Assembly (NCBI RefSeq): GCF_037094465.1
Contig: NZ_CP146609.1
Span: forward strand, 310,001 to 374,000
Reading direction: 5' to 3'
Length of the DNA: 64,000 bases
Source: Pseudodesulfovibrio sp. 5S69
GTDB taxonomy: Bacteria > Desulfobacterota > Desulfovibrionia > Desulfovibrionales > Desulfovibrionaceae
The notes below the pieces were generated by a model, which saw only the letters and a list, made by a program, of their open reading frames with translations, had not been told where the DNA came from and made no database searches. Positions 255-17,223 of the stretch are shown piece by piece; position 1 is the first letter of the stretch, and every line of letters begins with the position of its first letter. The position numbers and the translations under genes were made by a program.

Positions 255-1889
255 ATGACACATTCTCCGGCTGTTCAAAGAGCCGTTTTCGATGCCGAGG
301 CAATGGCGCGGACGCAGACGGAAGTTTCCTGTCCGGCCAACGCCTTCGTCGCCCGCGTCCGACTGGCGGACGGCGTTGTGGATGAGGCTTGGAGCACGGG
401 CCGCATGGTCCGGAACATGGACGTGCTGCTCAAGGGCGAACTGGACGCCAAGGGACGCCCCGGCTTCGTCCACCAGGCCCACTGCCTGTGCAACGATGGC
501 CATGCCCTGGCCGCCATCCGGGCCGTGGAGGATCTGGCGGGCGTAACCGTGCCGCACGGTGCGGGCCTGGTGCGCAGGCTGGTCCAGTCCCTGCGATGTA
601 TGCAGGAGCATCTGCTCCATTTTTATCAATTTCATCTGCCCGACTGGGCGAGCCTGGACAGGGCCTTGCGCGCCGACCCGGCCCGAACCGCGGCCTTGGC
701 CGCCCTGCCCGGCGAGGACGCGACCTATTTCCGTGCGCTCAAGGAGCGGCTGCGCGGGCTGGCCGAAGCGCGGGGGGACGGGGAATCCGACGCGCGGCAT
801 GACGATGCGTATCGGGGAACCGACGAACTGCATCTGCTGCTCTACGGACACGCCCTGGACGCCGTGCGGGTCGGCAGATCGCTCCAGGCGGCCCTGGCGC
901 TGCTGGACTGCGGCCCCAAGGGGTTCAAGGCCTACCGCATCGGCGGGTTGCCCGAGGACCTGGATTTGGGCGCGGAAAGCCTGGACCGGTTGCGCGCCAT
1001 CCTTGACGAATGCCGTGGATTCCTCCGCACCGTCTTTCCCGCCGACCTGACTCGGCTGGCCCGCGTCTACGGTTCTTGGAGCGGCCTGGGCGCGGGCGAG
1101 ACCCTGCTGACCTGGGACGACGTGACCGGCGCGGTCCTTGTCGATCCCATGGACGGCGAGGCCGCCTGGGCGCACGCCCAACCGGACGCCGCCGCCATCC
1201 GCGAGGAGCGCGAGCCGGACTGGCAGGGCGCGGACCGGCATCGCTACCGGCTGTTCGCGGATCGAGGCGAGCCGTTGTTCCGTTGGGGCGGGGGCGTCTA
1301 CTTCTGGCTGCCCGCGCCGAGGCACGGGGAGACCGCCTGCGAAGTGGGCCCGCTGGCCCGGGTCATGGGCGGCATGCTCGTCGGCGACCGCGACCTGGAC
1401 CGGACGCTCTCGGACCTGCTCGGCGGCTGCGGCCTGACCATGGCGGCCATGAACTCCACCCTGGGCCGGATCCTGGCGCGGGGCGCGGAGTCCGCCGCCC
1501 TGATGCGCTCCCTGCCGGGGGTGCTGGACGAGCTGGAACGGACCCTGCTCGGGGGGGCTCCCCGCTCCGTGGATTTCGCCCTGCCCCGATCCGGCGTCGG
1601 CGTGGGCCGGGTGGAGGTGCCGCGCGGCGCCCTGACGCACACCGTCCGCTGGGGCAATGGCCGGATACTCAATCACGACTACCTGATCCCGTCCCTGTGG
1701 AACTTCTCCCCGCGCGACACCATGGGCGAGCGCGGCCCGCTTGAGCGCGCCCTCCTGGGCACGCCGGTGGCCGACCCGGACCGCCCCGTGGAAATCCTGC
1801 GCACCCTGCACCAGTTGGACCCCTGCAACGCCTGCCACGTGGTCGTCGAGGACCGCGATACCGGCCGGATCAGTCTGACCACGGCCTGA
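255..1889 (+). CDS. [NiFe]-hydrogenase large-subunit-like protein, divergent, no small-subunit partner
   Basis: This 544-residue protein is homologous to [NiFe]-hydrogenase large subunits. The segment HALAAIRAVED (residues 83-93) follows the usual N-terminal cluster motif. The C-terminal stretch GTPVADPDRPVEILRTLHQL precedes DPCNAC (522-527). Both metal-binding motifs are altered. The N-terminal pair is CLC (Cys77, Cys79, then His83) instead of RxCGxCxxxH. At the C-terminus the usual DPCxxCxxH reads DPCNACHVV, with His one residue after the Cys rather than three. A 17-residue tail follows the last Cys, so proteolytic maturation is possible but the normal cleavage residue is missing. The start at 255 follows GAGGAGG; the open frame extends upstream but has no ribosome site there. 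No small subunit is encoded nearby. It heads an operon with HydE-like, NifHDK-like and HypCDE genes. Four Cys remain, so it could hold a mono- or dinuclear centre built on Fe(CN)2CO. The function is unknown. Confidence 0.8.
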   Translation: MTHSPAVQRAVFDAEAMARTQTEVSCPANAFVARVRLADGVVDEAWSTGRMVRNMDVLLKGELDAKGRPGFVHQAHCLCNDGHALAAIRAVEDLAGVTVPHGAGLVRRLVQSLRCMQEHLLHFYQFHLPDWASLDRALRADPARTAALAALPGEDATYFRALKERLRGLAEARGDGESDARHDDAYRGTDELHLLLYGHALDAVRVGRSLQAALALLDCGPKGFKAYRIGGLPEDLDLGAESLDRLRAILDECRGFLRTVFPADLTRLARVYGSWSGLGAGETLLTWDDVTGAVLVDPMDGEAAWAHAQPDAAAIREEREPDWQGADRHRYRLFADRGEPLFRWGGGVYFWLPAPRHGETACEVGPLARVMGGMLVGDRDLDRTLSDLLGGCGLTMAAMNSTLGRILARGAESAALMRSLPGVLDELERTLLGGAPRSVDFALPRSGVGVGRVEVPRGALTHTVRWGNGRILNHDYLIPSLWNFSPRDTMGERGPLERALLGTPVADPDRPVEILRTLHQLDPCNACHVVVEDRDTGRISLTTA

Positions 1890-1915
1890 TACCCCATGCA
1901 CAAAGGAAACGGAAA

Positions 1916-2926
1916 ATGAATCGAGAGACGATACTGGACGCCCTTCGGGACGATCTCTGCCAGGAGGCCCTGTTCCGACAGGCCGACCAGGTGCGCCGGG
2001 AACAGGTGGGCAGCGAGGTGCAGTTGCGCGGCGTGGTCCATTTTTCCAATTATTGCCGCTGCAACGACCTCTATTGCGGTCTGTTCCGGGACAACGGCCA
2101 GTGCAAGCGGTTCCGCATGACCGAGGACGAGATCGTGGACACGGCCCTGGCCGTGGCCGAGGCGGGCCTGCACACCGTAGTCCTGCAATCGGGCGAGGAC
2201 CCGTTCTTCACCAGGCCCATGCTCTGCTCCGTCATTGAGCGCATTCTGGACAAGGCGGACGTGGCCGTGACCCTGAGCCTCGGGCTACGTTCCCGCGAGG
2301 ACCTGATCGCCTTCCGGGACGCCGGGGCCGAGCGCTATCTCATGAAGCACGAGACCATGAACCCGGCCCTCTATGCGCGCATGCGCCCCGGGCTGAAGCT
2401 CGACGACCGGCTGCGGCTCATCGACCTGCTGCGCGAACTAGGCTTCCAGGTGGGCGTGGGCAACATCGTGGGCCTGCCGGGCCAGACCCTGGAGGACCTG
2501 AGCGAGGACATCCTCTTCTTCCAGGCCTTCCAGCCGGACATGATCAACATCGGCCCGTTCATCCCCCACGCCCAGACCCCGCTCAAGGACGATCCCGCGG
2601 GCGACATCGAACTGATGCTGCGCGTCTTCGCCCTGACCCGGATCGTCACCGGCAACACGCACATGGCCGCGGCCAACACCGTGGCCACCCTGGACCCGGA
2701 CAACGGGCAGTACCGGGCCCTGACCCAGGGCGGAGCCAACGTCATCATGCCCAACTGCAACCCCTTCCTGAAGAGCCGGGAGGACAAGGTCGAGTACGAG
2801 TTTCAGATCACCACACGCAAGCGCTACGTCTCGGTGGACGAGGCCCGGAGCGTGGTCGGCCGGGCCGGGCGAACCATCGGCGGGAGCAAGGGACATTCAT
2901 TCAAACTGCAAGGAGGAACAAATTGA
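1916..2926 (+). CDS. HydE-family radical SAM protein with rearranged cluster motif
   Basis: This 336-residue protein matches HydE of [FeFe]-hydrogenase maturation along its length. Recognisable stretches are VLQSGEDPFFTRPML, the KHETMNP and GNIVGLPGQT segments, and GPFIPHAQTPL near residue 210. HydE acts on organometallic Fe-CO-CN species during H-cluster assembly. The oddity is the radical SAM motif: HydE has CxxxCxxCG, but here the codons read C-R-C-N-D-L-Y-C-G. The middle Cys has moved two positions and an Asp sits where it should be (CxCxxxxC). A second, canonical HydE-type protein is encoded at 10349-11236, so this copy is probably specialised to the Nif-like operon. Its stop overlaps the TTG start of the NifH-like gene, implying coupled translation. 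It could bind a site-differentiated cluster with changed ligands, or have lost SAM chemistry. Confidence 0.85.
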   Translation: MNRETILDALRDDLCQEALFRQADQVRREQVGSEVQLRGVVHFSNYCRCNDLYCGLFRDNGQCKRFRMTEDEIVDTALAVAEAGLHTVVLQSGEDPFFTRPMLCSVIERILDKADVAVTLSLGLRSREDLIAFRDAGAERYLMKHETMNPALYARMRPGLKLDDRLRLIDLLRELGFQVGVGNIVGLPGQTLEDLSEDILFFQAFQPDMINIGPFIPHAQTPLKDDPAGDIELMLRVFALTRIVTGNTHMAAANTVATLDPDNGQYRALTQGGANVIMPNCNPFLKSREDKVEYEFQITTRKRYVSVDEARSVVGRAGRTIGGSKGHSFKLQGGTN

Positions 2927-3690
2927 TCAAGGTAGCGATCTACGGCAAGGGCGGCATCGGCAAGTCCACGGTGACTTCCGGGATTTCCGCAGCCCTGGGC
3001 CTTGAAGGATACAATGTCATGCAGGTGGGCTGCGACCCCAAGACGGACTCCACCATCAACCTGCTCGGCGGCACCCCTCCGCCTCCCATCCTGCAATACC
3101 TTCAGGAACAGGGCAGGCCCGAGACCCTGGAAGCCATCGTGCGACGCGGCTTCGGCGGCGTGGCCTGCATGGAGGTGGGCGGTCCCACGCCGGGCGTGGG
3201 CTGTTTCGGCCGGGGCATGCTCACGGCCTTCGAACTGCTCGACGAGATGGGGGCCTACGAGCGCTTCCAGCCGGACGTGGTCCTGTACGACATCCTGGCC
3301 GACATCGTCTGCGGCGGCATTGCCGTGCCCATGCGCGAGGGGTTCGCGGACAAGGTCTGCATCGTCACCTCGGGCGAGAAGATGGCCCTGCTGGCCGCCC
3401 AGAACATCATTTTGGCCCTGCGCAACTTCGCAGACCGCAACTACGCCGAGCTGGGCGGCCTGATCCTCAACTGCCGCGACATGGCCGACGAGGTCGAGCG
3501 GGTGGAGGAGTTCGCCCGCAAGATGGACACCGAGGTCATCGGCGTGATTCCGCGCGACACGGTCATCCACAAGTTCGAGGAAGAGGGCAGGACCATCGTG
3601 GAGGGCGACCGGACCCTGCCGACCTCCGCACGGTTCTTCGACCTGGCCCGAACCATCGTCAATTTCGCCGAAAAACGGAATGCAGCCTAA
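2923..3690 (+). CDS. NifH-like ATP-dependent reductase (Fe protein homologue)
   Basis: This 255-residue protein has all the Fe-protein hallmarks. It has a deviant Walker A GKGGIGKST (residues 8-16), the switch region GCDPKTDST (36-44), GPTPGVGCFGRG with Cys94, and DIVCGG with Cys130. Those two Cys bridge a [4Fe-4S] cluster across the homodimer. The family couples ATP hydrolysis to one-electron transfer to a NifDK-, BchNB-, CfbD- or MarDK-type partner. The start is TTG at 2923, placed well after AAGGAGG and overlapping the upstream stop. Its partners follow immediately at 3704 and 5012. It is shorter than NifH (about 290 residues), ending soon after the nucleotide-binding core, as in other nitrogenase-like reductases. 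Confidence 0.92.
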   Translation: MIKVAIYGKGGIGKSTVTSGISAALGLEGYNVMQVGCDPKTDSTINLLGGTPPPPILQYLQEQGRPETLEAIVRRGFGGVACMEVGGPTPGVGCFGRGMLTAFELLDEMGAYERFQPDVVLYDILADIVCGGIAVPMREGFADKVCIVTSGEKMALLAAQNIILALRNFADRNYAELGGLILNCRDMADEVERVEEFARKMDTEVIGVIPRDTVIHKFEEEGRTIVEGDRTLPTSARFFDLARTIVNFAEKRNAA

Positions 3691-3703
3691 CCGGGAGGAA
3701 AAC

Positions 3704-5002
3704 ATGGATCTGGATCACGCCCGCGTCCGCATCGAGGACCTGCGGGAAAAAGCGGATTTCCCCTTCGCCCCCCTGGAAGGCGTGGGGCCCAACCTGGCTG
3801 GCTGGGGGGTCATCGAGACCTGCCTGCTCCTGCCCGAGTCCGTGGCCATCATGGCCGGGCCTTCGGCCTGCCTGCGCCACTCGGCCTTCATGGCCCACGC
3901 GCGCGGCTTCACCGAGCGGTTCCACATGCTCTGCATCGAGGAACTGGACATGACCATGGGCAACCACCTGCCCCTGGTGGAGCAAGGCATGGCCGACATC
4001 CTGGCCCGGCGCGACGAAAAGGTCGCCTTCCTCATCGTGGGCTGTCCGGACTACATCCTGGGCACGGACTTCACCGGGGTCATCAACCGGCTGGAGGCGT
4101 CCACCGGCAGGCGGATCATCCTCGGGGCCATGGCCCCCATCACCATCGGCCTCAAGGAGTCGCCCTTCACCTCGGCCTACACCTCGTTCTTCGAGTTCCT
4201 CAAGCACGAGAAGCGCGAACCCAAGGACGACCGGATCAACCTGCTGGGCACCTTCATGCCCCTGTCCGCTTCCGGCGAATTCTACCGGGTCCTGGCCGAC
4301 GCCGAGCTGGACGACGTGCTCCAGATCCCCCTCTGCCCGGACCTTGAGACCTTCGCGGGCATGGCCCACGCCCGGGCCTCGGTGGTCATGCATCCCCTGG
4401 CCAATGGATTGAGCGGCAAGCTGCAGGGCGAGATGGACATTCCGACCTGCTTTGCGCCCACCGCCTACGGCTTTTCGACCATCCGGGAGCAGTACGGGCT
4501 CATCGGCGAGGCCGTGGGCCGCACCCTTGCCGTCGACAAGATCGAGGCAGACGCCCGCGAGGCGGCCCGGCCCATGCTCGACGCCCTGCGCGGAAAGAAC
4601 GTGGCCGTGGGGTGCAGCATCAACGGCAGCCCCTTCGAGCTGGCCCTGTTCCTGGTGGACCAGGGCGTGAACGTGGAGACCCTGTTCGCGCGCGGGACCA
4701 TCAAACCCTATGAGTGGAAGCTCATCGAACAACTGCGCGCGGCCAAGCCGGACATCCAGGTGTACAACGTCTCCCATCCGGCCCTGTACGGCCGGACCGA
4801 GCCCTTCGACCACGTGGAGGTGGCCTACGGGGTGGACGCGGGCATGTTTTGCGCCCACGCGGCCAACGTGCCCCTGTCCCGTTACCAGGAACAAAAGTAC
4901 GGCTTCGAAGCCACCCTGTGGATGCTGGACCAGACCCGAGAGGCCATGGAGCACCCTGTGGCCAACTACGACTGGATCTACGCCCACGACTTTCTCATCT
5001 AA
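3704..5002 (+). CDS. NifD-like nitrogenase-superfamily subunit, alpha type
   Basis: This 432-residue protein has the NifD/BchN fold pattern. Three N-terminal Cys match the P-cluster or [4Fe-4S] ligand positions: Cys40, Cys56 in GPSAC, and Cys114 in VGCPDYILGTDF, which corresponds to the nitrogenase CPxxLIGDD segment. In the region that carries the FeMo-cofactor Cys in NifD (HCYRSM type) this protein reads VVMHPLANG, so that Cys is absent. It is therefore not a classical nitrogenase but a member of the nitrogenase-like group that includes DPOR, COR, CfbD and methylthio-alkane reductase. It probably receives electrons from the NifH-like protein and pairs with the next gene. The start at 3704 is preferred over an in-frame ATG at 3680 because GGGAGG lies between them. 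The substrate is unknown. Confidence 0.88.
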   Translation: MDLDHARVRIEDLREKADFPFAPLEGVGPNLAGWGVIETCLLLPESVAIMAGPSACLRHSAFMAHARGFTERFHMLCIEELDMTMGNHLPLVEQGMADILARRDEKVAFLIVGCPDYILGTDFTGVINRLEASTGRRIILGAMAPITIGLKESPFTSAYTSFFEFLKHEKREPKDDRINLLGTFMPLSASGEFYRVLADAELDDVLQIPLCPDLETFAGMAHARASVVMHPLANGLSGKLQGEMDIPTCFAPTAYGFSTIREQYGLIGEAVGRTLAVDKIEADAREAARPMLDALRGKNVAVGCSINGSPFELALFLVDQGVNVETLFARGTIKPYEWKLIEQLRAAKPDIQVYNVSHPALYGRTEPFDHVEVAYGVDAGMFCAHAANVPLSRYQEQKYGFEATLWMLDQTREAMEHPVANYDWIYAHDFLI

Positions 5003-5011
5003 GGAATTGTC

Positions 5012-6217
5012 ATGAAAGAATATCATCACCTTCTCCCCCTGGCCACGGGCTACTTCGGTGTCAGCTCGGCCCTGTACGATTTCGAGGGGCTCGTTGTGGT
5101 CTACGGCCCGGCGGGCGGGGCCTGGCACATCAACATCGAGGACGAGCCGCGCTGGTACCGGGGCCCGGCCACGGTGGTCGGCGCGGGCCTGCTGGAAATG
5201 GACGTCATCCTGGGCAACGACGACAAGTTCATCGACAACATCGTCAAGACCGCCGAGGGGTTGAACCGCCGCTTCGTGGCCCTGGCCGGCACGCCCATCT
5301 CCGAAATCATCGGCACGGACCTCAAGGGGTTCGCCCGAACCATCGAATCGCGCACCGGCCTGCCGGTCTTCATGGTCCCCACGGCCGGGTCCGAGCCCTA
5401 TCCCGAGGGGGCGTCCAAGGCCTTCCTAGCCCTGGCCGACAAGTTCATGGACCCGGACGCACCCGGCATCGGCAACGGCGTCAACGTGCTCGGGGCCATC
5501 CACCTGTCCACCGGCAAGGAAGCGCACCTCGGCCCGCTATTCGACATCCTCCGCGAGGAGGGCTTCTGGCTGATGAGTACCTTCGCCGGGCCCGTGCTCG
5601 GATTGAGCGATCCCCTGGAAGGCGTGCGCAACGCGGCGGGCGCGGGGGTCAACGCCGTCATCTCCACCAGCGGCCTGGCCCTGGCCAAGCGCATGTATAC
5701 GGACCACGGCATCCCGTTCGTGGTCGGCATGCCAGTCGGGCTGGCGGGCTGCAACGCCTTCCTGGCCATGCTGCGCGGCGAGGAGCCGCCCGCGCCGGAC
5801 AGGCCGGACCAGGCCGCCCCGCAACGACACGCCCTGGTCATCGGCGAGCCGGTCATGAGCTACGGCCTGAAGCACTGCCTGGTCCACGACTTCGGCATCC
5901 CGCGCGTGGACGTGGTCTGCGTGGCCCCGAGCCAGGCGCTCTTTTGCGAGTCGTCGGGCCGAGGCGGCCTGCTGGCCGAACGCGGGCCCCACGACCGGGA
6001 CACGGACGGCGAGGCCGAGATCGCCGCCCTGATGAACGACCCCTCAGTGGATCTGATCGTGGCCGACCCCTGCTACCGAGCCTTGACCAATGGTCCGGCC
6101 GTGTTTGTGGACCTGCCGCACGTGGCCATGAGCGCCCGCATCCACTGGGACCTGGACTACGAATACATCGGCGAGCCGGGGTACGACTACCTTGCCTCAC
6201 ATCTACTGGACGACTGA
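5012..6217 (+). CDS. NifK-like nitrogenase-superfamily subunit, beta type, lacking cluster Cys
   Basis: This 401-residue protein has NifK-like landmarks: YGPAGGAWH (residues 31-39), LLEMDVILGNDDKF (60-73, like the NifK E-x-D-x-V-F-G-G segment) and TPISEIIGTDLKGF (94-107, like the NifK CMAEVIGDDL segment). At each position where NifK has a P-cluster Cys this protein has a non-Cys residue (Ala/Gly/Thr). The heterodimer would thus have three Cys from the alpha-like subunit and none from this one, an arrangement reminiscent of DPOR, where an Asp supplies the fourth ligand. All Cys are in the second half. It starts 9 bp after the NifD-like stop with an AAGGA site, so the two are surely co-translated. 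It may be a diverged docking or regulatory half. Confidence 0.85.
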   Translation: MKEYHHLLPLATGYFGVSSALYDFEGLVVVYGPAGGAWHINIEDEPRWYRGPATVVGAGLLEMDVILGNDDKFIDNIVKTAEGLNRRFVALAGTPISEIIGTDLKGFARTIESRTGLPVFMVPTAGSEPYPEGASKAFLALADKFMDPDAPGIGNGVNVLGAIHLSTGKEAHLGPLFDILREEGFWLMSTFAGPVLGLSDPLEGVRNAAGAGVNAVISTSGLALAKRMYTDHGIPFVVGMPVGLAGCNAFLAMLRGEEPPAPDRPDQAAPQRHALVIGEPVMSYGLKHCLVHDFGIPRVDVVCVAPSQALFCESSGRGGLLAERGPHDRDTDGEAEIAALMNDPSVDLIVADPCYRALTNGPAVFVDLPHVAMSARIHWDLDYEYIGEPGYDYLASHLLDD

Positions 6218-6233
6218 ACCCAAGGAGGAAACC

Positions 6234-6482
6234 ATGTGTCTCGCCGTTCCCGCCGAAGTGCTCTCCATTGACGCCGACGTGGCCGTCTGCCGCGTGGACC
6301 GGGGGCAGACCACGGTCAAGGCGTCCCTGATGCTTCTGCCCGCCGCGCCCGAGGTGGGCGAATTCCTGATCATCCACGCCGGGTTCGCCTTGCGCGTCCT
6401 GGACCGGGAGGAGGCCGAGGAAAGCCTGCGCGCGCTCAATGAAGCCGTGGGCTGTCCCCTGGGTACGGGTACCGAGGAATAA
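6234..6482 (+). CDS. hypC: HypC, Fe(CN)2CO carrier chaperone
   Basis: This 82-residue protein begins MCLAVPAEV, with the essential Cys2, and carries the conserved IHAGFAL segment with its His. HypC binds HypD and carries the Fe(CN)2CO unit to the hydrogenase large subunit. AAGGAGG precedes the ATG, and the spacer to the NifK-like stop is only 16 bp, so it belongs to the same transcript. The family is also written HypC/HybG. The sequence looks canonical, so it may serve the normal [NiFe] hydrogenases of the cell as well as the divergent large subunit at 255-1889. Confidence 0.95.
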   Translation: MCLAVPAEVLSIDADVAVCRVDRGQTTVKASLMLLPAAPEVGEFLIIHAGFALRVLDREEAEESLRALNEAVGCPLGTGTEE

Positions 6483-6485
6483 ACT

Positions 6486-7580
6486 ATGAGCTTTGAATTA
6501 CTGGAAAAGTTCCGTGATCCGGCCCTGTGCCGGAAAATCCTCGACAAGATGGAATCCGAACTGGACCGGGAGCTGCGCTTCATGGAGGTCTGCGGCACCC
6601 ATACCGTGGCCATCTTCCAGAGCGGGCTGCGCTCCCTCCTGCCGGAAAAGATCGTCCATCTCTCCGGGCCTGGCTGTCCGGTCTGCGTGACCCACGAGTC
6701 CGAGGTCAACGCCTTTCTGGACCTGGCGGGGCACGAAAACGTCATCCTGGCCACCTTCGGCGATCTCATGCGCGTTCCCGGCGACAAGGGCCGCAACCTG
6801 AAGAAGGCCGTGGCCGACGGGGCGCGGGTCAAGGTGGTCTATTCGCCCTTCGACACCCTTAAGCTGGCCAAGGAGAACCCCGGCGACCTGGTGGTCTTCA
6901 TCGGCGTGGGCTTCGAGACCACGGCCCCGACCATTGCCGCGACCATGAAGATGGCCCGCGAGCAGGGCATCGACAACCTGCGCATCCTCTGTTTCCACAA
7001 GACCGTGCCCACCGCGCTCGACGCGCTGCTGTCGGACGAGGCCATCAACATCGACGGCTTTATCCTGCCCGGCCACGTGTCGGCCATCATCGGCGTGGAG
7101 CCGTACGAATTCATCGCCGAGAACTACGCCAAGTCCGCCGTGGTCACCGGGTTCGAGCCCCTGGACATCCTCCAGTCCCTGAACCAGATGATCGAGTGGC
7201 GAAACAAGGGCGAGGCCCACGTGGCCAACAACTACACGCGCATCGTCGGCGAGCATGGCAACCCCAAGGCGCTCGAGATCATGTACGAGGTCTTCGAGCC
7301 CTGCGACGCCCTGTGGCGCGGCCTGGGCCTGATCCCCGGCTCCGGGCTGGAAATTCGGCCCGAGTGGGAGTCCTTCGACGCCAAGAAGCAGTTCGGCATC
7401 GAGATCAAGGAGAGCCCGGCCCTGCCCGGCTGCAAGTGCGGCGACATCCTCAAGGGTGTCAAGCAGCCGGACCAGTGCCCGCTGTTCGGCAAGGCCTGCA
7501 CCCCGGCCAACCCGGTCGGCCCGTGCATGGTCTCCACCGAAGGCTCCTGTGCCGCCTACTACAAATACAAATTGGATTAG
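6486..7580 (+). CDS. hypD: HypD, scaffold for Fe(CN)2CO assembly
   Basis: This 364-residue protein is a full-length HypD. It has CGTH (36-39), GPGCPVC (61-67), GFETTAPT in the middle, and the C-terminal Cys-rich part CPLFGKACTP...GPCMVSTEGSC that holds the [4Fe-4S] cluster. HypD is the scaffold on which two cyanides and a CO are placed on iron before transfer through HypC. It starts 3 bp after hypC. All catalytic Cys are present, so this part of the operon should be functional. It is separated from hypE by a 124-bp inverted-repeat element rather than the usual short spacer. Confidence 0.96.
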   Translation: MSFELLEKFRDPALCRKILDKMESELDRELRFMEVCGTHTVAIFQSGLRSLLPEKIVHLSGPGCPVCVTHESEVNAFLDLAGHENVILATFGDLMRVPGDKGRNLKKAVADGARVKVVYSPFDTLKLAKENPGDLVVFIGVGFETTAPTIAATMKMAREQGIDNLRILCFHKTVPTALDALLSDEAINIDGFILPGHVSAIIGVEPYEFIAENYAKSAVVTGFEPLDILQSLNQMIEWRNKGEAHVANNYTRIVGEHGNPKALEIMYEVFEPCDALWRGLGLIPGSGLEIRPEWESFDAKKQFGIEIKESPALPGCKCGDILKGVKQPDQCPLFGKACTPANPVGPCMVSTEGSCAAYYKYKLD

Positions 7581-7704
7581 CAGGCTGTTGAAAAATGCGC
7601 GATTGCTGCGTTGCTGCGAAAAGTTCAAATCCTTGCGTCCGTTTTGTGCGCGGCGGCCTTGAACTTTTCCTGCGCCTTGCACTCGTCCCTTTTTGAACAG
7701 CCTG
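7581..7704. repeat. 124-bp element with terminal inverted repeats between hypD and hypE
   Basis: The ends are CAGGCTGTTGAAAAA (7581-7595) and TTTTTGAACAGCCTG (7690-7704), inverted repeats with one mismatch. The interior has a second short inverted pair, AAGTTCAA and TTGAACTT. The element begins directly after the hypD stop and ends just before the hypE ribosome site. It looks like a non-autonomous miniature element that folds into a hairpin in the mRNA. It could dampen or stabilise hypE expression. Confidence 0.75.
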
Positions 7705-7717
7705 AAAGGGTGATATC

Positions 7718-8722
7718 ATGTCTGATAAAGTGTTACTCGACTACGGCAGCGGCGGCCGCGCTTCCCAGCGCCTCATTTCCGACCTCTTTCTCAAATACCT
7801 CGGCAACGACGAACTCGACCGCCTCAACGACGCGGCGGTCCTGAACCTGTCCGGCAGGATCGCCATGTCCACCGACTCGTTCACCGTGGACCCGATCTTC
7901 TTTCCCGGCGGCGACATCGGCTCCCTGGCCGTGCACGGTACGGTCAACGACGTGGCCATGATGGGCGCGGTGCCGCGCTACATCACCTGCGGCTACATCA
8001 TCGAGGAAGGGCTGCCCATGGCCGACCTGGAGCGCATCGTCCAGTCCATGGGCGAGGCCGCGCGGCACGCCGGGGTCAAGGTCGTCACCGGCGACACCAA
8101 GGTCGTGCCCAAGGGCGCCTGCGACAAGATTTTCATCAACACCACCGGCATCGGCGAGATCATCGCCGACCCGACGCCGAGCGGCGACGCGGCCAGGGTT
8201 GGCGACGCGGTCCTGGTCTCCGGGACCATGGGCGACCACGGCCTGACCGTGCTCGGCACCCGCGAGGGGCTGGACTTCGAGGCCAAGGTCCAGTCCGACT
8301 CGGCCGCCCTGAACCACCTTCTGGTCAAGCTCGTCCGCGAACTGCCCGAGGTCCACGTCCTGCGCGACCCCACGCGCGGCGGCCTGGCCACCACCCTGAA
8401 CGAGATCACCAAGAGCTCGAACGTCTGCTGTGAACTGACCGAGACCAGCATCCCGGTCCGGCCCGAGGTCAAGGGCGGCTGCTCCATCCTCGGCCTCGAC
8501 CCGCTCTACCTGGCCAACGAGGGCAAGTTCATCTGCATCCTGCCCGGCGAATACGCGGACAAGGCCCTCGAAATCATGCGCGCCGACCCGCTGGGCCAAG
8601 ACGCCTGCCGCATCGGCACCATGACCGACGCCAACCCCGGCAAGGTCGTCCTCGTCACCCAGCTCGGCGGCAAACGCCTGCTGGGCATGCTTGAAGGCGA
8701 ACAACTCCCGCGCATCTGCTAG
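7718..8722 (+). CDS. hypE: HypE, carbamoyl dehydratase making the cyanide ligand
   Basis: This 334-residue protein is a PurM/AIR-synthase-fold HypE. It opens with LLDYGSGGRASQRLI, has the ATP-binding VVTGDTKVV segment, and ends PRIC. The C-terminal Cys receives the carbamoyl group from HypF and is dehydrated to thiocyanate, the source of CN for HypD. The start at 7718 follows AAAGGG. HypF, HypA and HypB are not in the window. The operon therefore supplies the Fe-ligand branch but not the nickel-insertion branch of maturation. Confidence 0.95.
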   Translation: MSDKVLLDYGSGGRASQRLISDLFLKYLGNDELDRLNDAAVLNLSGRIAMSTDSFTVDPIFFPGGDIGSLAVHGTVNDVAMMGAVPRYITCGYIIEEGLPMADLERIVQSMGEAARHAGVKVVTGDTKVVPKGACDKIFINTTGIGEIIADPTPSGDAARVGDAVLVSGTMGDHGLTVLGTREGLDFEAKVQSDSAALNHLLVKLVRELPEVHVLRDPTRGGLATTLNEITKSSNVCCELTETSIPVRPEVKGGCSILGLDPLYLANEGKFICILPGEYADKALEIMRADPLGQDACRIGTMTDANPGKVVLVTQLGGKRLLGMLEGEQLPRIC

Positions 8723-8767
8723 CGCCACGGATACCAATAAAAAGTTTGGAAGGGGGAGTCCGGAGGC

Positions 8768-9162: not shown

Positions 9163-10359
9163 CTATCGAAAGAAGGGAGCGATGATCCGGTCCAGCACCC
9201 CCTGGACCTTGGAGATGGCCACCCCATAGTTGGTGATGGACACATCGCGGCGGGCGCATTCGGCCATGCGGCGGAGCATTTCGGTGCGGTTCAGCATGCA
9301 CGCGCCGCAGTGGACCACAAGGCTGAATTTTTCCAGGTCTTCGGGAAAATCGTGGCCGGAATAGACCTCGAAGTGCAGGTCGCGGCCGGTGTACTGGGAC
9401 ATCCAGCGGGGAATCTTGACCCGGCCGATGTCGTCGGCCACGTCGTGGTGCGAACACGCCTCGCCGATGAGCACGCGGTCGCCGTCCTTGAGCCGGTCGA
9501 TGGCCGCAGCGCCCTGCACCAGCCGGTTCAGGTCGCCCTTGTAGCGGGCGAACAGGGTGGAGAAGGTGGTCAGGGGGATGTCGTCCGGCACGTCCCCGGC
9601 CACGCTCATGATCACCTGGGAGTCGCTGACGACCAGGGCGGGTTTGCGGTTGAAACCATCCAGGGCCGCCTGGATCTCCCGCTCCTTGACGATGGTGCCC
9701 ATGGCGTCGCAGTCCAGGATTTCGCGCAGTACCTGGACCTGGGGCAGGATCAGCCGCCCCTTGGGTGCGGCCAGATCGATGGGCACCACGCAGAGCACGC
9801 AGTCGCCCTCGTCGATAAGGTCGCCCACGATAAGCCGTTCCTGGCGGTACTCGGGCGGGGCCGCGTCGATGATCGCCTGCTTGAGGCGGTCCACGTTGCG
9901 ACCGTCCGTGGCCGAAACCTCGAGCACGGGCGCGGCCGGATCCGCCGGGATCGGGTTTGCGCCGGGTTCGCGCAGGTCCGCCTTGTTCCAGGCCACGATG
10001 TAGGGGATGTCCAGTTCGCGGATGGTCTCGATGAGGGCCTGCTCGTAGCCGGTGAGCCCGTCCTCGCCGAGCACGACCACGGCCACGTCGCTGCGGTAGA
10101 GGATCTTGCGCGTGGCCTTGACGCGCAGCTCGCCCAGTTCGCCCTGGTCGTCCAGTCCGGCGGTGTCGTAGAAGGTCACCGGGCCCAGGGGCAGGAGCTC
10201 GTAGGACTTGGCCACCGGGTCCGTGGTGGTGCCCGGCATGTCCGAGACGATGGCGATGTCTTGTCCGGTGAGGGCGTTGATCAGGGACGACTTGCCCGCA
10301 TTGCGCCGCCCCACCAGGGCGATGACCAGCCGGACGCCGCGCGGAGCCTTACCCGACAT
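9163..10359 (-). CDS. hydF: HydF, GTPase scaffold for [FeFe]-hydrogenase maturation
   Basis: This 398-residue protein has an N-terminal Ras-like GTPase domain: P-loop GRRNAGKS (17-24), then GTTTDP, DTAG and NKAD. It has a middle dimerisation region and the C-terminal cluster-binding part CSHHDVADDIGR...VHCGAC. That fits the HydF CxH...HCxxC ligand set. HydF receives the [2Fe] precursor made by HydG and HydE and delivers it to HydA. Its ATG lies inside the end of hydE, an overlap of 11 bp, so translation is coupled. No HydG gene is present in the window. Confidence 0.95.
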   Translation of the reverse strand: MSGKAPRGVRLVIALVGRRNAGKSSLINALTGQDIAIVSDMPGTTTDPVAKSYELLPLGPVTFYDTAGLDDQGELGELRVKATRKILYRSDVAVVVLGEDGLTGYEQALIETIRELDIPYIVAWNKADLREPGANPIPADPAAPVLEVSATDGRNVDRLKQAIIDAAPPEYRQERLIVGDLIDEGDCVLCVVPIDLAAPKGRLILPQVQVLREILDCDAMGTIVKEREIQAALDGFNRKPALVVSDSQVIMSVAGDVPDDIPLTTFSTLFARYKGDLNRLVQGAAAIDRLKDGDRVLIGEACSHHDVADDIGRVKIPRWMSQYTGRDLHFEVYSGHDFPEDLEKFSLVVHCGACMLNRTEMLRRMAECARRDVSITNYGVAISKVQGVLDRIIAPFFR

Positions 10360-11236
10360 GGCGGCTCTCCCGGGCGAGTCCCTCGGCCTGTGGCGGGATA
10401 GGCATGGCGGGCTGGATCGCGTCGCAGCCCCGTTCCAGGGCGAGCCGACCGCTGCCCGGACGCAGTTCGTCCAGGGACTCCATGGCCGGGATGCAGGCCT
10501 CGGGGAGCATGATGCGCAGCAGGGCGGCCATGCGCATGGCCGTATCCACGGACCCGGGGGTCATGCCGTCCATGGGCGTGCCGGATCGGGGCACGAAAGG
10601 CTCGATCTCGACCATGGCCGGCCGCAGCTCGGCCAGAAAAAGGAGATCGCGCAGGCTGTCCATGGGGGTGGTGCCGGGCAGTCCGGCCACCACGCCGGTC
10701 CCGATCTCGTAGCCGAGTTCACGCAGCCCTTCCAGCAGGCGCAGCTTGGCGGTGAAATCCGTCCCCTGGTCGAGCCGCTTGAAGGCGAACGGCTCCGAGG
10801 TCTCCAGGTTGACCTGGCAGCGGTCGGCCCCGCATTCCTTCCAGTGGACATATTCGTCGAATCCGCGTTGACCGAGGGACAGCGTGACCGCCAGGCCGTG
10901 CCGGGATTTGAGCTCCCGGACGAGTTCGCCGACAAGCGGCGCGTCGTACCTACGGTCGATGCCGGACCGGAGAATGACCGCATCGGCTCCGTCCCTCGCG
11001 GCTTGGGCGGCCATGCCCAGCACCTGGGAGGGGGGCAACCGGTAACGCCGGAGCCGTCCGTTGGCGCTGCGCAAGTCGCAGTGGCGGCACGCCCTGTCGC
11101 AGACGTTGGAGATTCGGATCACGGCGTGGACGGGGCGCGCCGCGCCAAGGGACTGCCGACGCACGGCGTCGGCTTGCGCATACAGTCCCGAGTCGTCGGA
11201 ACGGTTCAAATAATAGAGCAGATCGGTCGGGTTCAT
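10349..11236 (-). CDS. hydE: HydE-type radical SAM protein of the hydF cluster
   Basis: This 295-residue radical SAM protein has the canonical CDRACRHC motif (CxxxCxxC). It has HydE-like stretches such as GVVAGLPGTTPMDSLRDLLFLAEL and EIEPFVPRSGTPMDGM. HydE modifies the organometallic iron synthon during H-cluster assembly. It is shorter than the typical 340-350 residues and ends soon after the barrel. Its ATG overlaps the aspartase stop (ATGA) and its end overlaps hydF, so the three are one translational unit. The paralogue at 1916-2926 is closer to textbook HydE over most of its length but has the altered Cys motif. Confidence 0.88.
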   Translation of the reverse strand: MNPTDLLYYLNRSDDSGLYAQADAVRRQSLGAARPVHAVIRISNVCDRACRHCDLRSANGRLRRYRLPPSQVLGMAAQAARDGADAVILRSGIDRRYDAPLVGELVRELKSRHGLAVTLSLGQRGFDEYVHWKECGADRCQVNLETSEPFAFKRLDQGTDFTAKLRLLEGLRELGYEIGTGVVAGLPGTTPMDSLRDLLFLAELRPAMVEIEPFVPRSGTPMDGMTPGSVDTAMRMAALLRIMLPEACIPAMESLDELRPGSGRLALERGCDAIQPAMPIPPQAEGLARESRHVG

Positions 11237-12672
11237 GGCGTGTTCAGTTCCTCGAATTCTTCCGGGGTGAATCCCAGCTTGCAGAGTTGACGGGGGGAAA
11301 GAAGCCGCTTCAGCGTTTCCGGGTCGGCCACGCCGACGCGGACCGCCTGCTCGGAGACGGTCCTGCCCGCCTTGCGCGCCTCGGCCACCAGTTCGCCGAC
11401 CGGGTCGTAGCCCAGAAACGGCACCAAAACCGTGGCCAGCGCCGAGCTCTGCTCCACGTGTTCCCGGCAGCGCTCCTCGCACGCCCGGATGCCCGGTACG
11501 CAGTGCTCGGCCAAGCCGTTGCAGGCGGCGGTCAGCAGGGTCAGGGTTTCGAGCAGGGAATGGGTGATGAGCGGCAGCAGGTGGTTGAGCTCCAACTGGC
11601 CTAGGGCGGCGGCCATGGTCACGGCCTGGTCGTTGGCCATGACCCGGATGGCGGCCTGGGTGACGGCCTCTGGCATGACCGGGTTGATCTTGCCCGCCAT
11701 GATCGAGGACCCGGCCTGGAGCGGCGGCAGGCGGATTTCCCCGAACCCTGCGTCCGGCCCGCTGGACAACAGCCGCAGGTCCGAGGCGATCTTCAACAGG
11801 GTGGCGGCGCAGGCCTTGAGCATGCCCGACACCTCGACGAAGACGTCCATGTTCTGGGTCGCGTCCACAAGGTTCTCCGCCCTGGATACGGGCAGGCCCG
11901 TGATGGCCGCCAGATGCCCGGCCGCGGAGAGGATGTAGTCGCGCGGCGCGCCCAGCCCCGTGCCGATGGCCGTGCCGCCGAGATTGACCCGTTTCAGCCG
12001 CTCCCGGCACTTGAAGATGCGCCAGCGGTCCCGAGCCACGGCGTCGGCAAAGGCTCCGAAGGTCATGCCTAGGGTCATGGGCACCGCGTCGGTCAGTTCG
12101 GTCCGGGCCACTTTGACCACGTTGCGGAAGGCCGCCTCGCGCTCCTGCATGGACTCCTGGAACCGGCCGACGGCTTGCTCCAGCTCGATGAGCAGGGTCA
12201 GCGCCGCCACCTTCAGGGCCGTGGGGTACACGTCGTTGGTGGACTGGTGCATGTTGACGTCGCGCAGGGGGGCGACCAGGGCGCGGTCGCCCCGGTCGCC
12301 GCCGAGCAGTTCGGCGGCCCGTCCGGCGATGACCTCGTTGAAATTCATGTTGGTGGAGGTGCCCGCCCCGCCCTGGAAGGCGTCGACGACGATCTGGTCG
12401 GCCAGCTCACCCGCCGCCATTTCGGCGCAGGCGTCCATGATCGCCCGTCCGCGCTCCTCGGGAAGATACCCGAGGAGCGCGTTGGTCTTGGCGCAAGCCT
12501 GTTTGACTTGGGCGAACGAACGGATGAATGCCGGGTGCAACCGATATCCGGAAAAGGGGAAATTGCGCACGGCCCGCAAGGTGTGGATGCCCCAGTAGGC
12601 CTCCGCGGGCAGGGCGAGTTCGCCTATTCCGTCCTGCTCGATTCGGTTTTCTTGAGGCTTCCGGTCCCGCAT
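11233..12672 (-). CDS. aspA: Aspartate ammonia-lyase family enzyme in the hydrogenase maturation cluster
   Basis: This 479-residue protein is an aspartase/fumarase superfamily member. It has QGGAGTSTNMNFNEVI near residue 100, HQSTNDVYPTAL, and the signature loop GSSIMAGKINPVMPE, where the usual GSSxMPxKxN has Ala for Pro. Aspartase releases ammonia and fumarate from aspartate. Aspartase genes recur beside hydE and hydF in anaerobes. A plausible role is to supply ammonia for the bridging azadithiolate amine, which is an inference. Its stop overlaps the hydE start. A class II fumarase is less likely given the context but cannot be excluded by eye. Confidence 0.85.
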   Translation of the reverse strand: MRDRKPQENRIEQDGIGELALPAEAYWGIHTLRAVRNFPFSGYRLHPAFIRSFAQVKQACAKTNALLGYLPEERGRAIMDACAEMAAGELADQIVVDAFQGGAGTSTNMNFNEVIAGRAAELLGGDRGDRALVAPLRDVNMHQSTNDVYPTALKVAALTLLIELEQAVGRFQESMQEREAAFRNVVKVARTELTDAVPMTLGMTFGAFADAVARDRWRIFKCRERLKRVNLGGTAIGTGLGAPRDYILSAAGHLAAITGLPVSRAENLVDATQNMDVFVEVSGMLKACAATLLKIASDLRLLSSGPDAGFGEIRLPPLQAGSSIMAGKINPVMPEAVTQAAIRVMANDQAVTMAAALGQLELNHLLPLITHSLLETLTLLTAACNGLAEHCVPGIRACEERCREHVEQSSALATVLVPFLGYDPVGELVAEARKAGRTVSEQAVRVGVADPETLKRLLSPRQLCKLGFTPEEFEELNTP

Positions 12673-13436: not shown

Positions 13437-13769
13437 TTAGATGTTGAACTTGTAGCCCTTGGCCTTGAGCGCAGCCACCCGGGCGCTGCGGTCCACATAG
13501 TGGGTGTGCAGCAGGTGGTGGGACATATGGCCGCAGGGACCTTCATGCAGGAAGCCGTCCTCATGGTTGTAGAGCTTCTTGATCATGGGGTTGTCCTGGG
13601 ACTTCCTGACCTTGTAGATGTGGGCGTCGGCGTCGTAGACGGACTTCTGGCGCAGGCCGACGAAGTCCATGGTGGCGGCGACCGCCTCCCTGGTCATGTT
13701 CAGGCCGAGGACCGTGTAGCCGGCCATCATGCCGCAGACCTTGATGAATCCGCGTCTGTTCAGTTTCAT
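13437..13769 (-). CDS. hydB: HydB, [FeFe]-hydrogenase small subunit with Tat signal
   Basis: This 110-residue protein has a twin-arginine signal NRRGFIK, a hydrophobic stretch and AVAA cleavage region (about residue 32). The small-subunit body follows with EGPCGHMSHHLLHTHYVDRS near the C-terminus. In Desulfovibrio the small subunit wraps the large one and carries the export signal for both, placing the enzyme in the periplasm. It follows hydA with a 14-bp spacer and an AAGGAGG site. This gene order (hydA then hydB) is the usual one. Confidence 0.95.
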   Translation of the reverse strand: MKLNRRGFIKVCGMMAGYTVLGLNMTREAVAATMDFVGLRQKSVYDADAHIYKVRKSQDNPMIKKLYNHEDGFLHEGPCGHMSHHLLHTHYVDRSARVAALKAKGYKFNI

Positions 13770-13783: not shown

Positions 13784-15043
13784 TTATGCCCCGACCCTAC
13801 GGGCCCGGAAGCGCTTGTTGATCTGGGCCACGGTGGACCGGAACAGGGAGGCCCTGATGTCGGGGTCCACGGGCTGGCCGCCGCCGTTCACGCACCCGCC
13901 GGGGCAGGTCATGATCTCGATGAAGTGGTACGGGGACTTGCCCGCGCGCACCTCTTCGCACAGTTTGGCCGCGTTCTTCAGGCCGCTGGCCACGGCGACC
14001 TTGACCGTGCCGAAGTTGGGCACTTTCACGTCGGCGGTATTGATGCCTTCGTGGGTGCGCACGACCTTGATGTTAGGATTGTTCAGCTTCTCCCCGGACA
14101 GCACTTCGTAGGCCAGGCGCAGGGCCGCTTCCATGACGCCGCCGGAGTTGCCGAAGATCGTCGCCGCACCGGTGGAGTCGCCGAGGATCGGGTCCGGCCC
14201 CTGGGAAGGCAGGGAATTGAAGTCGATGCCCGCGGTCTTGATCATGTAGGCCAGTTCGCGGGTGTCGATGGTCGCGTCGATGTCCCGGAAGCCGCTGTCG
14301 GCCATCTCCGAACGCATCCCTTCGTATTTCTTGGCGATGCAGGGCATGATGGAGACCGTGTAGATCTTCTGGGCCGGAGTGTGGGTCTCTTCGGCGCCGT
14401 AGGTCTTGGCCAGCGGGCCGAGCATGCCGATGGGCGACTTGCAGCTCGACATGTTCGGCAGCAGGTCGGGGTAGAAGGTTTCGGCGAACTTGACCCAGCC
14501 GGGGCAGCAGGAGGTGAACTGGGGCAGGGGACGGGCGTCCTTCTGGCCTTGTTCCTTGACCCGCTGGATGAGCTCGGTGCCCTCCTCCATGATAGTCACG
14601 TCGGCAGTGAACTCGTTGTCCCAGATGTAGTTGAAGCCGAGCTGGCGCAGGGCCGCATGCATCTGGCCGCCAACGTAGGTGCCGGTGGGTTTGCCGAAGC
14701 ATTCGCCCAGGCCGTAGCGCACGGCGGGCGCGGGCATGGACACCACGATGGTGTTCGGATCTTTCAGTTTTTCAAAGATTTCATCCACGTAGGATACGCC
14801 CTCGTAGATGGCGTCGTAGGGACAGTTGACCAGGCACTGGCCGCAGTTCATGCAGGCCGCCGGGTCCACCACCTGGTGGATGCCGTCCTCGTTGATCGAC
14901 TGGATCGCCCCCGTGGCGCAGTGTTCCTCGCAGGTACCGCAAGCCTGGCACTTGGTGGCGTCGACCTGGACGAAGAACAGGCTGTCCGGGTCAATCCCCT
15001 TGGGTGCGTTGGTTTGGGTCATAACGCCTTCAATCTGTTTCAT
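13784..15043 (-). CDS. hydA: HydA, periplasmic [FeFe]-hydrogenase large subunit
   Basis: This 419-residue catalytic subunit has two [4Fe-4S] ferredoxin motifs (Cys32, 35, 38, 42 and Cys64, 67, 70, 74). The three H-cluster signatures follow in order: FTSCCPGWVKF, MPCIAKKYE and EIMTCPGGCVNGGG. It has no signal peptide; export depends on HydB. The chosen ATG at 15043 is preceded by AAGGAGGGCACC, and the length agrees with Desulfovibrio HydA (about 420). It oxidises or produces H2 and exchanges electrons with periplasmic cytochrome c3. The promoter region carries the shared GTAACAC dyad. Confidence 0.97.
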   Translation of the reverse strand: MKQIEGVMTQTNAPKGIDPDSLFFVQVDATKCQACGTCEEHCATGAIQSINEDGIHQVVDPAACMNCGQCLVNCPYDAIYEGVSYVDEIFEKLKDPNTIVVSMPAPAVRYGLGECFGKPTGTYVGGQMHAALRQLGFNYIWDNEFTADVTIMEEGTELIQRVKEQGQKDARPLPQFTSCCPGWVKFAETFYPDLLPNMSSCKSPIGMLGPLAKTYGAEETHTPAQKIYTVSIMPCIAKKYEGMRSEMADSGFRDIDATIDTRELAYMIKTAGIDFNSLPSQGPDPILGDSTGAATIFGNSGGVMEAALRLAYEVLSGEKLNNPNIKVVRTHEGINTADVKVPNFGTVKVAVASGLKNAAKLCEEVRAGKSPYHFIEIMTCPGGCVNGGGQPVDPDIRASLFRSTVAQINKRFRARRVGA

Positions 15044-15187
15044 GGTGCCCTCCTTGTTGGGGTGGATTGAAGACAAGTCCACCGGCGTGACTGCCGGTGC
15101 CGACTTTGGTGTGCATCCTGACATCGGATACCCTCCTCCGCTAACTTCGATGCCGGTCGGACCGGTTGATGTTAGCACGAATTAAAT

Positions 15188-15570: not shown

Positions 15571-17223
15571 ATGCGAAGATGTGCGGACTGCGCCGTGGGG
15601 ATTCGGCGGACTTTGGTATTGACGGCGTTGCTCGGAGCCCTGTTGTTCACCGCTCTTCCGGGAGCGCTGGCTGCGCCGCCGGAAGGCAAGGATGTCCTGG
15701 TCTATTCCTGGAACTCCAACATGGGCGAGTTCAACCCGCACCTGTATTCACCCAACCAGATGTTCTCCCAGAACCTGATCTATGAGCCGCTGGTGCACTA
15801 TCGGGCCGACGGCACTGTCACCCCATGTCTGGCCGAGTCCTGGGTCATCAGTCCGGACGGCCGCGAATATACCTTCAAGCTGCGCAAGGACGTGCGCTTC
15901 TCCGACGGCCAGCCGTTCAACGCCATGGCCGTGAAACGCAATATCGACGCCATCATGTTCAACCACGAGCGCCACCAGTGGCTGGAGCTTATCAACCAAC
16001 TGTGGAAAGCCAAGGAAGCCGGGAAGGAGCCCGCCACCGTGCTGGATGAATACACGGTCAAGCTGACCCTGCACGACCCCTATTATCCCGCGTTGCAGGA
16101 GTTGGCCCTGATCCGCCCTGTCCGGTTCCTGTCTCCGGCCGCCATGCCGGAGAGCGGCAATACTTCCAAGGGCATCAAGGCCCCCATCGGCACCGGCCCA
16201 TGGAAGATGGTGGAATCGGTCAAGAGCGAATACGTCCTGATGGAACGCAACGAGGATTACTGGGGAGACAAGACGAAGACCAAGTATCTCCTGATCAAGA
16301 TCATTCCCGACACCAACGCCCGGGTCGTTGCCTTCGAGACCGGCCAGATCGACCTTATCTACGGCGGGGCCGGCCATGGATCGGGCCAGATCGGCCTGGA
16401 CAGCTTCGAGAACTACCGCCACGTACCGGGCGTGGTCACCAAGATCTCCGGGCCCCTGGCCACCCGTGCCTTGGCGCTGAACACCAACCGGTTCCCGACC
16501 AACGACATTGCGGTGCGCAAGGCCATACTGCACGCCGTGGACCGGGACGCCATGGTCAAGCACATCTTCATGGATGTGGAACAGCGGGCCGACACGCTCT
16601 TCTCCCCGAGCTTCCCTTATTGCGACCTGAAGCTGAAACCTTACGACTTCAGCCGGGACAAGGCCGAGGCCCTGCTGGACAAGGCGGGCTGGGTCCTGGC
16701 CGACGGCGCCAAGTACCGCAGCAAGGACGGCAAGGAACTGGCCCTGGACCTGTGCTTCGCAGGCAACGACACCTTGATGAAATCCGTGGCCGAGGTGGTG
16801 CAGGGCGATCTCAAGAAGGTCGGCATCAAGGTCAATCTGGTGGGCGAGGAAAAAGACTCCAACCTGGCCCGGCAGAAGAGCGGTGAATTCGGCATGATCT
16901 TCGGCAGCACCTTTGGCGCGCCCTACGACCCGCACTCCTTCGTCAGTTCCATGCGCGTGCCCTCCCACGCCGACTACCAGGCCCAGCTCGGTCTGCCCAT
17001 GAAGGCGGATATCGACAAGGCCATCGGTCAGGTTCTGGTCAGCGTGGACAAGACCAAGCGCCAGGAACTGTACAGGTACATCCTGGGTACGCTGCACGAA
17101 AACGCCGTGTACATGCCGATCACCTACCTGACCAACATCATGGTCTACCGGGACGGCCTCAAGGGCGCGCACTTCGGCCCGACCAAGGACGAAATACCCT
17201 TTGAGACCATCTACAAAGACTAG
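15571..17223 (+). CDS. nikA: NikA, periplasmic nickel-binding protein of an ABC importer
   Basis: This 550-residue extracytoplasmic solute-binding protein (family 5) has an N-terminal signal (about residues 12-35). Its body follows E. coli NikA closely: EFNPHLYSPNQMFSQNLIYE, IKAPIGTGPWKM, FETGQIDLIYG, GMIFGSTFGAPYDPHSF and SSMRVPSHADYQAQLGL. These are NikA rather than DppA or OppA features. It probably binds a nickel-metallophore complex. The gene opens a five-gene operon. The ribosome site is GAGGGGAGAG before the ATG. Nickel import suits an organism rich in [NiFe] enzymes and sits beside the hyp and hyd genes. Confidence 0.92.
   Translation: MRRCADCAVGIRRTLVLTALLGALLFTALPGALAAPPEGKDVLVYSWNSNMGEFNPHLYSPNQMFSQNLIYEPLVHYRADGTVTPCLAESWVISPDGREYTFKLRKDVRFSDGQPFNAMAVKRNIDAIMFNHERHQWLELINQLWKAKEAGKEPATVLDEYTVKLTLHDPYYPALQELALIRPVRFLSPAAMPESGNTSKGIKAPIGTGPWKMVESVKSEYVLMERNEDYWGDKTKTKYLLIKIIPDTNARVVAFETGQIDLIYGGAGHGSGQIGLDSFENYRHVPGVVTKISGPLATRALALNTNRFPTNDIAVRKAILHAVDRDAMVKHIFMDVEQRADTLFSPSFPYCDLKLKPYDFSRDKAEALLDKAGWVLADGAKYRSKDGKELALDLCFAGNDTLMKSVAEVVQGDLKKVGIKVNLVGEEKDSNLARQKSGEFGMIFGSTFGAPYDPHSFVSSMRVPSHADYQAQLGLPMKADIDKAIGQVLVSVDKTKRQELYRYILGTLHENAVYMPITYLTNIMVYRDGLKGAHFGPTKDEIPFETIYKD

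Follow-up and report, generated by a model that had tools for sequence, protein, structure and literature searches.

We analyzed a 64,000-nucleotide stretch of Pseudodesulfovibrio sp. 5S69 (NZ_CP146609.1, positions 310,001 to 374,000, forward strand), referred to throughout as the window. Near its start lies an operon of eight genes that encodes a homologue of the [NiFe]-hydrogenase large subunit (HydL), a member of the HydE family (HydE'), three nitrogenase-like proteins (NifH-, NifD- and NifK-like) and the proteins HypC, HypD and HypE (Table 1). On the facing strand are hydF, a second hydE, aspA and hydAB, a context that an earlier note on this DNA had overlooked. Below we argue that the operon probably provides the H-cluster of the neighboring [FeFe]-hydrogenase with an alternative maturation route that does not depend on HydG.

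A check of the open reading frames (ORFs) showed that all eight are complete and unbroken on the + strand, with gaps of 26, −4, 13, 9, 16, 3 and 137 bp in order, as the earlier note had described. Profile searches matched every gene to the family named there (PF00374, TIGR03956, Fer4_NifH, Oxidored_nitro twice, HypC, HypD and HypE), and the eight genes indeed include no HypA, HypB, HypF or [NiFe] small subunit. The 137-bp gap, said to hold a miniature repeat, contains a 136-bp element with 26-nt inverted ends; we regard it as an insertion because hypD and hypE are nearly adjacent in the other copy of this gene pair in the genome.

Table 1. Genes and other features of the locus, in window coordinates.
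Feature	Position	Strand	Evidence
hydL, [NiFe]-hydrogenase large-subunit homologue	255..1889	+	NiFeSe_Hases PF00374, 276.5 bits; motif columns
hydE', HydE family	1916..2926	+	C-R-C-N-D-L-Y-C; TIGR03956, 265 bits, above the 254.6 cut-off
nifH-like Fe protein	2923..3690	+	TTG start; Fer4_NifH PF00142, 262 bits; cluster Cys and P-loop kept
nifD-like component 1 subunit	3704..5002	+	Oxidored_nitro PF00148, 75 bits; family alignment; tree
nifK-like component 1 subunit	5012..6217	+	Oxidored_nitro PF00148, 79 bits; no conserved P-cluster Cys
hypC	6234..6482	+	TIGR00074; MCLAVP start
hypD	6486..7580	+	TIGR00075; DNA 98.5% identical to second genomic copy
136-bp insert	7581..7716	n/a	26-nt inverted ends with 81% complementarity; other hypDE copy lacks the insert
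hypE	7718..8722	+	TIGR02124; C-terminal PRIC; DNA 99.4% identical to second genomic copy
hydF, [FeFe]-hydrogenase scaffold GTPase	9163..10359	-	TIGR03918, 552 bits
second hydE (hydE_H)	10349..11236	-	Canonical CX3CX2C; diverged, 167 bits, below cut-off; end branch 2.14
aspA-type ammonia-lyase	11233..12672	-	NF008909, 610 bits
[FeFe]-hydrogenase small subunit	13437..13769	-	PF02256
hydA, [FeFe]-hydrogenase group A	13784..15178	-	TIGR02512, 470 bits; motifs TSCCPGW, MPCIAKKYE and EIMTCPGGCVNGG intact

The CO and CN ligands of [FeFe]-hydrogenase are described as coming from HydG. In this 4.16-Mb single-contig genome hydA is the sole PF02906 match, its three H-cluster motifs (L1–L3) are intact, and HydF of the canonical HydEFG maturation system is clearly recognized, yet a whole-genome search found no HydG. 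The best TIGR03955 match (E = 1.9e-63) fell below the cut-off; genomes that we scored as HydG-positive had E values below 1e-100, the best being 7e-278. A tblastn search likewise detected no trace of HydG in the interval from hydF to hydA, where relatives with the ordinary system have the order hydF-hydE-(aspA)-hydG-hydA or similar (L058, L059, L060, L062). The genome also contains four genes with strong nitrogenase-type matches, which we take to be nifDKEN, a normal [NiFe] hydrogenase, an EchE-like gene and a second hypDE copy. AspA-type lyases are reported to occur in hyd operons and to be able to provide the bridgehead nitrogen (excerpts of PMC11736057).

We searched one set of 348 genomes of the order for the NifD-like family (E < 1e-50), HydG (E < 1e-100) and HydF (E < 1e-50; 181 genomes, 178 of them above the curated cut-off). 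NifD-like matches occurred in 130 genomes, and 29 were counted as carrying the nitrogenase-like system: 19 at about 710–760 bits and 10 at about 177–221 bits. The 101 weaker matches (E = 1e-6 to 1e-18) were excluded as probable ordinary nitrogenase genes; that of the window genome is its nifDKEN locus. Results showed the system in 29/181 genomes with HydF versus 0/167 without it. HydG was missing in 24/29 genomes with the system versus 19/152 HydF-positive genomes lacking it (Fisher p = 1e-13), or in 21/29 versus 18/152 by the curated HydG cut-off, when G135, G137, G141 and G099 change sides (p = 7e-11); these p values overstate independence because the genomes are kin and relatedness was left uncorrected, which counts against our interpretation.

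The same contrast appeared within genera. At the E < 1e-100 threshold, HydG was missing in 6/7 genomes with the system versus 1/22 without it in g1, and in 10/10 versus 2/42 in g18, while in g34 both system genomes lacked HydG versus 1/15 others. HydA (TIGR02512) passed its cut-off in every system genome but one, G116 (355 bits), giving 28 of 29; in G130 the hydA copy of the cluster is split, and another HydA copy passes. Seven of the 19 HydF-positive genomes that have neither HydG nor the system also have no HydA above cut-off (G305, G265, G210, G019, G057, G058, G230) and would therefore need no maturation.

Two cluster types were distinguished. Type A, the form seen in the window, was found in 19 Desulfovibrionaceae genomes and in four further loci (L010–L013), and type B in 10 genomes of g18. 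The type-A core is hydE'-nifHDK, joined by hydL in 19/19 Desulfovibrionaceae loci (one cut by a contig end). In Desulfofervidaceae, L010 has on one strand the order hydA-small subunit-(100-aa ORF)-hypE-hypC-aspA-hydF-hydE'-nifH-nifD-nifK-hypF-hypD, and L011 is similar, with hypF and with hypC, hypD and hypE not recognized; both lack hydL. None of the four genomes of L010–L013 has HydG above cut-off. Type B has the order hydA-(small ORF)-hydE-hydF-nifHDK-nifHDK-hypF-hypC-hypD-hypE, with hydL in none of its 10 loci; several of these are cut by contig or fetch limits, and hypF-like genes were seen in nine, hypD in eight, hypE in seven and hypC in six. Hyp genes are thus present in three cluster types, and no HypA or HypB was recognized in the clusters examined. 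Proteins of 758–830 aa were considered as new partners and rejected: two that we tested are HypF, and eight more from type B and that of L011 resemble those two. The type-B clusters (L077–L086) contain two tandem, divergent NifHDK sets. Thermodesulfobium narugense and Lebetimonas are further named sources of NifD-like proteins.

These comparisons bear on HydL. Its L2 motif has lost the first Cys, a terminal Ni ligand, in 17 of the 18 copies that cover the site, whereas the second is kept in 18/18; both Cys of DPCxxC are kept in 19/19, and the His three residues downstream, where maturation cleavage occurs, is lost in 19/19. HydL therefore retains three of the four Ni/Fe Cys of a [NiFe] large subunit, along with the RGxL Arg and PSLWN. 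The earlier note would have been refuted by Nif-like genes standing apart from the hydrogenase-like and HydE-like genes in related genomes; in L010, L011 and the 10 type-B loci NifHDK-like genes do stand with HydE and Hyp genes but no HydL, and we rejected HydL as the center of the system because these sister clusters lack it. It would be at most a clade-specific carrier of the Hyp-made iron unit. One could still propose that the product of the operon is another organometallic Fe cofactor, with HydL as its host, and that proximity to hydA and hydF reflects no more than a common role in hydrogen metabolism. The constant linkage of hydL in Desulfovibrionaceae and the retained Fe-bridging Cys, Arg and PSLWN fit this proposal, but the loci without hydL lie beside hyd genes, the system was never found without HydF in the 348 genomes, and the loss of HydG would be left unexplained; we consider it unlikely. 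Of the suggestion that the cluster encodes an undescribed Fe cofactor enzyme or a maturing reductase, the second part is supported, the likeliest target being the neighboring H-cluster, and the new enzyme built around the hydrogenase-like subunit is not.

The genomes with the system form a graded series of losses. Five keep both HydG and canonical HydE (G287, G089, G094, G321, G328); four keep HydE without an intact HydG (G270, G314, G000, G235), with canonical HydE scores falling to 220 bits in G314 and 166 bits in G000; and in 10 both HydG and canonical HydE are gone. In the draft genome G235, which carries the system, HydG is reduced to its N-terminal 153 codons between hydA and aspA (L074:2697-3158). 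Such a pattern would be expected if HydG was first replaced and the old HydE then decayed. The five genomes with HydG and the system together would also suit an accessory reductase acting in repair or reactivation of an H-cluster that some other route had built, and ATP-driven systems with nitrogenase-type clusters are reported to activate other enzymes, such as the methyl-coenzyme M reductase activation complex (excerpts of PMC12176620). We think such a repair role quite unlikely, since in the HydG-less majority of system genomes, 10 of which also lack canonical HydE, the CO/CN iron unit needs a maker, and since Hyp genes recur across the three cluster types.

We next consider the proteins that a HydG-independent route would use. 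HydE' scores above the curated HydE cut-off, but the middle Cys of the radical S-adenosylmethionine (SAM) motif CX3CX2C is lost. This position is Asp in 23/23 type-A loci (22 in our motif table plus L009, which an overlap filter had left out and which was added afterwards) and Cys in 28/28 other HydE proteins examined. Among the best 120 of 7972 database matches, proteins assigned to the HydE' family and covering the site have Asp in 80 of 81; these 80 comprise 79 from the 83 best-scoring proteins, three of which are fragments without the site, and the fragment P0291, placed in the family on the strength of 59% identity and its Asp. P0280, with Cys, is the sole exception, and the remaining proteins of those 120 have Cys in 36/36. 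His249 and Cys281 (22/22 rows) and His42 (21/21 covering) also occur in type-A HydE' and in none of the 28 others, and the type-A rows form one group (Shimodaira–Hasegawa-like approximate likelihood ratio test, SH-aLRT, 100). Judged from these alignments, the Asp is diagnostic of type A. The predicted model of HydE' (predicted local distance difference test score 88) has T. maritima HydE as its nearest structure. SAM-motif Cys mutations in canonical HydE are reported to cause defective maturation (excerpts of PMC9431212). The second HydE of the window keeps CX3CX2C and has the longest end branch in the HydE tree. In 10 of the 19 type-A Desulfovibrionaceae genomes HydE' is the only HydE, none other scoring above 100 bits, while HydA and HydF are present; the four genomes of L010–L013 likewise contain no second HydE that exceeds 100 bits. 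Among the HydE'-only genomes G095 is a single contig, and G212, G220, G228, G256, G295 and G301 are at 99–100% completeness.

The NifH-like protein keeps the cluster Cys and P-loop, and its best PDB match is a nitrogenase iron protein. Searched against PDB sequences, the NifD family matched best to two chains annotated as nitrogenase (65 bits). In NifD-like, two Cys align with nitrogenase Cys, and the position of the NifD/NifE cofactor Cys is mostly His; NifK-like has no conserved P-cluster Cys. Oxidored_nitro and Fer4_NifH homology place the three proteins in the nitrogenase superfamily. The NifD-like and NifK-like pair lacks the full ligand set of nitrogenase component 1, six P-cluster Cys and the cofactor ligands Cys275/His442, as judged on the P-cluster Cys and the cofactor-Cys position. 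A quickly built tree from 11 type-A and 6 type-B loci, whose inner branches are long and which leaves out dark-operative protochlorophyllide oxidoreductase (DPOR), CfbD and methylthio-alkane reductase (Mar), placed the NifD-like proteins of both types in one group (SH-aLRT 96) and the NifK-like proteins in a second (99), apart from the window genome's own nitrogenase proteins (91).

The Hyp proteins of the window have the expected motifs: the N-terminal Cys of HypC, the Cys motifs of HypD and the C-terminal Cys of HypE. The hypDE region (window 6475-8745) matches the second copy in L146 (9143-11278), and this near-identical pair is consistent with recent duplication or gene conversion. We rejected the idea that hypDE are ancestral dedicated parts in this genome, as they are a 98–99% identical copy of the L146 pair.

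Sequence comparison establishes the linkage to hydA, hydF and aspA, the lack of a recognizable HydG, the presence of HypCDE, a HydE without its middle Cys and what appears to be a nitrogenase-like ATP-driven reductase. The genomic evidence for replacement of HydG is strong; the accompanying chemistry is what we infer. Canonically, HydG is reported to make an Fe(II)(CN)(CO)2 synthon and HydE to reduce it to Fe(I) through radical adenosylation and to pair it; a synthetic dimer, supplied together with HydF and components of glycine cleavage, can substitute for HydG and HydE (both from excerpts of PMC12752695). A Cys-less HydE beside an ATP-driven reductase and Hyp machinery suggests that the ligands come from Hyp in place of HydG and that NifHDK takes over from the radical reduction. 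HypE (with HypF) would make cyanide and HypCD would build an Fe(II)-CN-CO unit, which in this clade may pass to a HydL scaffold that has kept the Fe-bridging Cys and lost the first Ni Cys and the processing site. NifH would then give low-potential electrons to the NifDK-like proteins, which would reduce the unit from Fe(II) to Fe(I) with CN/CO adjustment, standing in for the radical adenosylation of canonical HydE. HydE' would bind Fe units and pair them, and HydF would bring the [2Fe] unit to HydA, the ammonia for its dithiomethylamine bridge coming from AspA. The Hyp unit bears two CN and one CO, so a ligand exchange or an extra CO source would be needed, which the scheme leaves unexplained. 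In a stricter version the Fe-CO-CN part would have no functional radical-SAM step: Hyp Fe(CN)2CO would be converted by the nitrogenase-like reductase to Fe(I)(CN)(CO)2, with HydE', its radical cluster lost, pairing the Fe units for HydF as a scaffold without radical chemistry. We regard this version as possible rather than probable.

Several observations weigh against a HydG-independent route, in addition to the kinship of the genomes. First, 12 genomes with HydA and HydF are without HydG and without the system. Among them, G136 contains two fragments from the C-terminal part of HydG, of which one or both lie at the end of a contig, G099 has a 325-bit paralogue, and the rest are drafts, some nearly complete (G244, G249, G254), without explanation. 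Second, five genomes carry HydG as well as the system. Third, the type-B genomes G135, G137 and G141 have a HydG paralogue of 325–333 bits, above the curated cut-off of 312, which was scored as HydG-absent because its class is also found in HydF-minus genomes, the ground on which the 325-bit class was rejected as HydG. G350 has a partial HydG match (139 bits), in our own reading ThiH-like, and G351 (L013, a metagenome-assembled genome) has hydE'-nifHDK and no HydA that we could find. Fourth, a [NiFe]-type match was present in each of the 37 genomes examined, so the Hyp proteins could be there for those enzymes. In eight type-B genomes the sole such match is short and resembles the EchE of the window genome; the 365-aa PF00374 matches in g18 were rejected as proof of no [NiFe] enzymes, since the own-genome case (L003) reads as EchE. 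Fifth, type-B HydE keeps the radical-SAM Cys, and loss of radical chemistry is thus not general. Lastly, hypC is linked in only 13/19 type-A Desulfovibrionaceae loci and hypD and hypE in six each, some loci ending at contig ends. That the nitrogenase-like enzyme has an unrelated function and co-occurs with HydF through common ancestry would draw on the kinship of the genomes and the few acquisitions that 19 type-A genomes require, but it is very improbable given hydA, hydE and hydF clusters in distinct lineages, the contrasts within g1 and g18, and a distinct HydE form adjoining nifH in every type-A locus examined.

HydA, HydE and HydF with neither HydG nor the system were found in G239, G241, G244, G249, G254 and others (L094–L097, L101); these may represent a further maturation case or an assembly gap. 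Loci L107–L115 hold a HydG-like radical SAM family (298–333 bits) with HydG-like C-terminal Cys residues, also in genomes without HydF. At the window itself, genes of a nickel ATP-binding cassette transporter (nikA-, nikB- and nikD-type matches) occupy positions 15571 to about 19930, beyond the hydA side of the locus, and a promoter scan gave a result at chance level.

If our interpretation is correct, a second natural route to the H-cluster would tie together three organometallic assembly systems (Hyd, Hyp and Nif), nitrogenase-like proteins would gain a new role, and many HydA-bearing genomes without HydG would be explained. It would also offer a new enzyme set for [FeFe]-hydrogenase production; E. 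coli supplies its own Hyp proteins. We found no description of such a system in the open-access literature, subscription papers being outside the search, and an H-cluster route that joins [NiFe]-maturation parts with a nitrogenase-like reductase and dispenses with HydG looks undescribed.

Among known systems, HydG-less Clostridium acetogens are alike in having HydE and HydF without a recognized HydG; an atypical HydG is among the explanations that the authors offer, none of them firm, and the excerpted text makes no link to Nif-like proteins (PMC9431212). HydEFG maturation shares HydA with intact H-cluster motifs, HydF, a HydE-family protein and AspA in one locus, whereas here no HydG was found, type-A HydE' lacks the middle radical-SAM Cys, and NifHDK-like and Hyp proteins are added. 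HypABCDEF maturation of [NiFe] enzymes shares HypC, HypD and HypE (and HypF in sister clusters) with the motifs expected for Fe(CN)2CO; it differs in that HypA and HypB were not recognized here, the genes are linked to those of [FeFe]-hydrogenase, and the sole large-subunit relative in the operon lacks a Ni Cys and the cleavage His. Lastly, DPOR and chlorophyllide oxidoreductase (COR), CfbCD and methylthio-alkane reductase also pair a NifH-type Fe protein with a two-subunit component 1, of which D here keeps two P-cluster-type Cys. Unlike those nitrogenase-like reductases, the present system has a K subunit without conserved P-cluster Cys, His at the aligned cofactor-Cys position, and a context of hyd and hyp genes.

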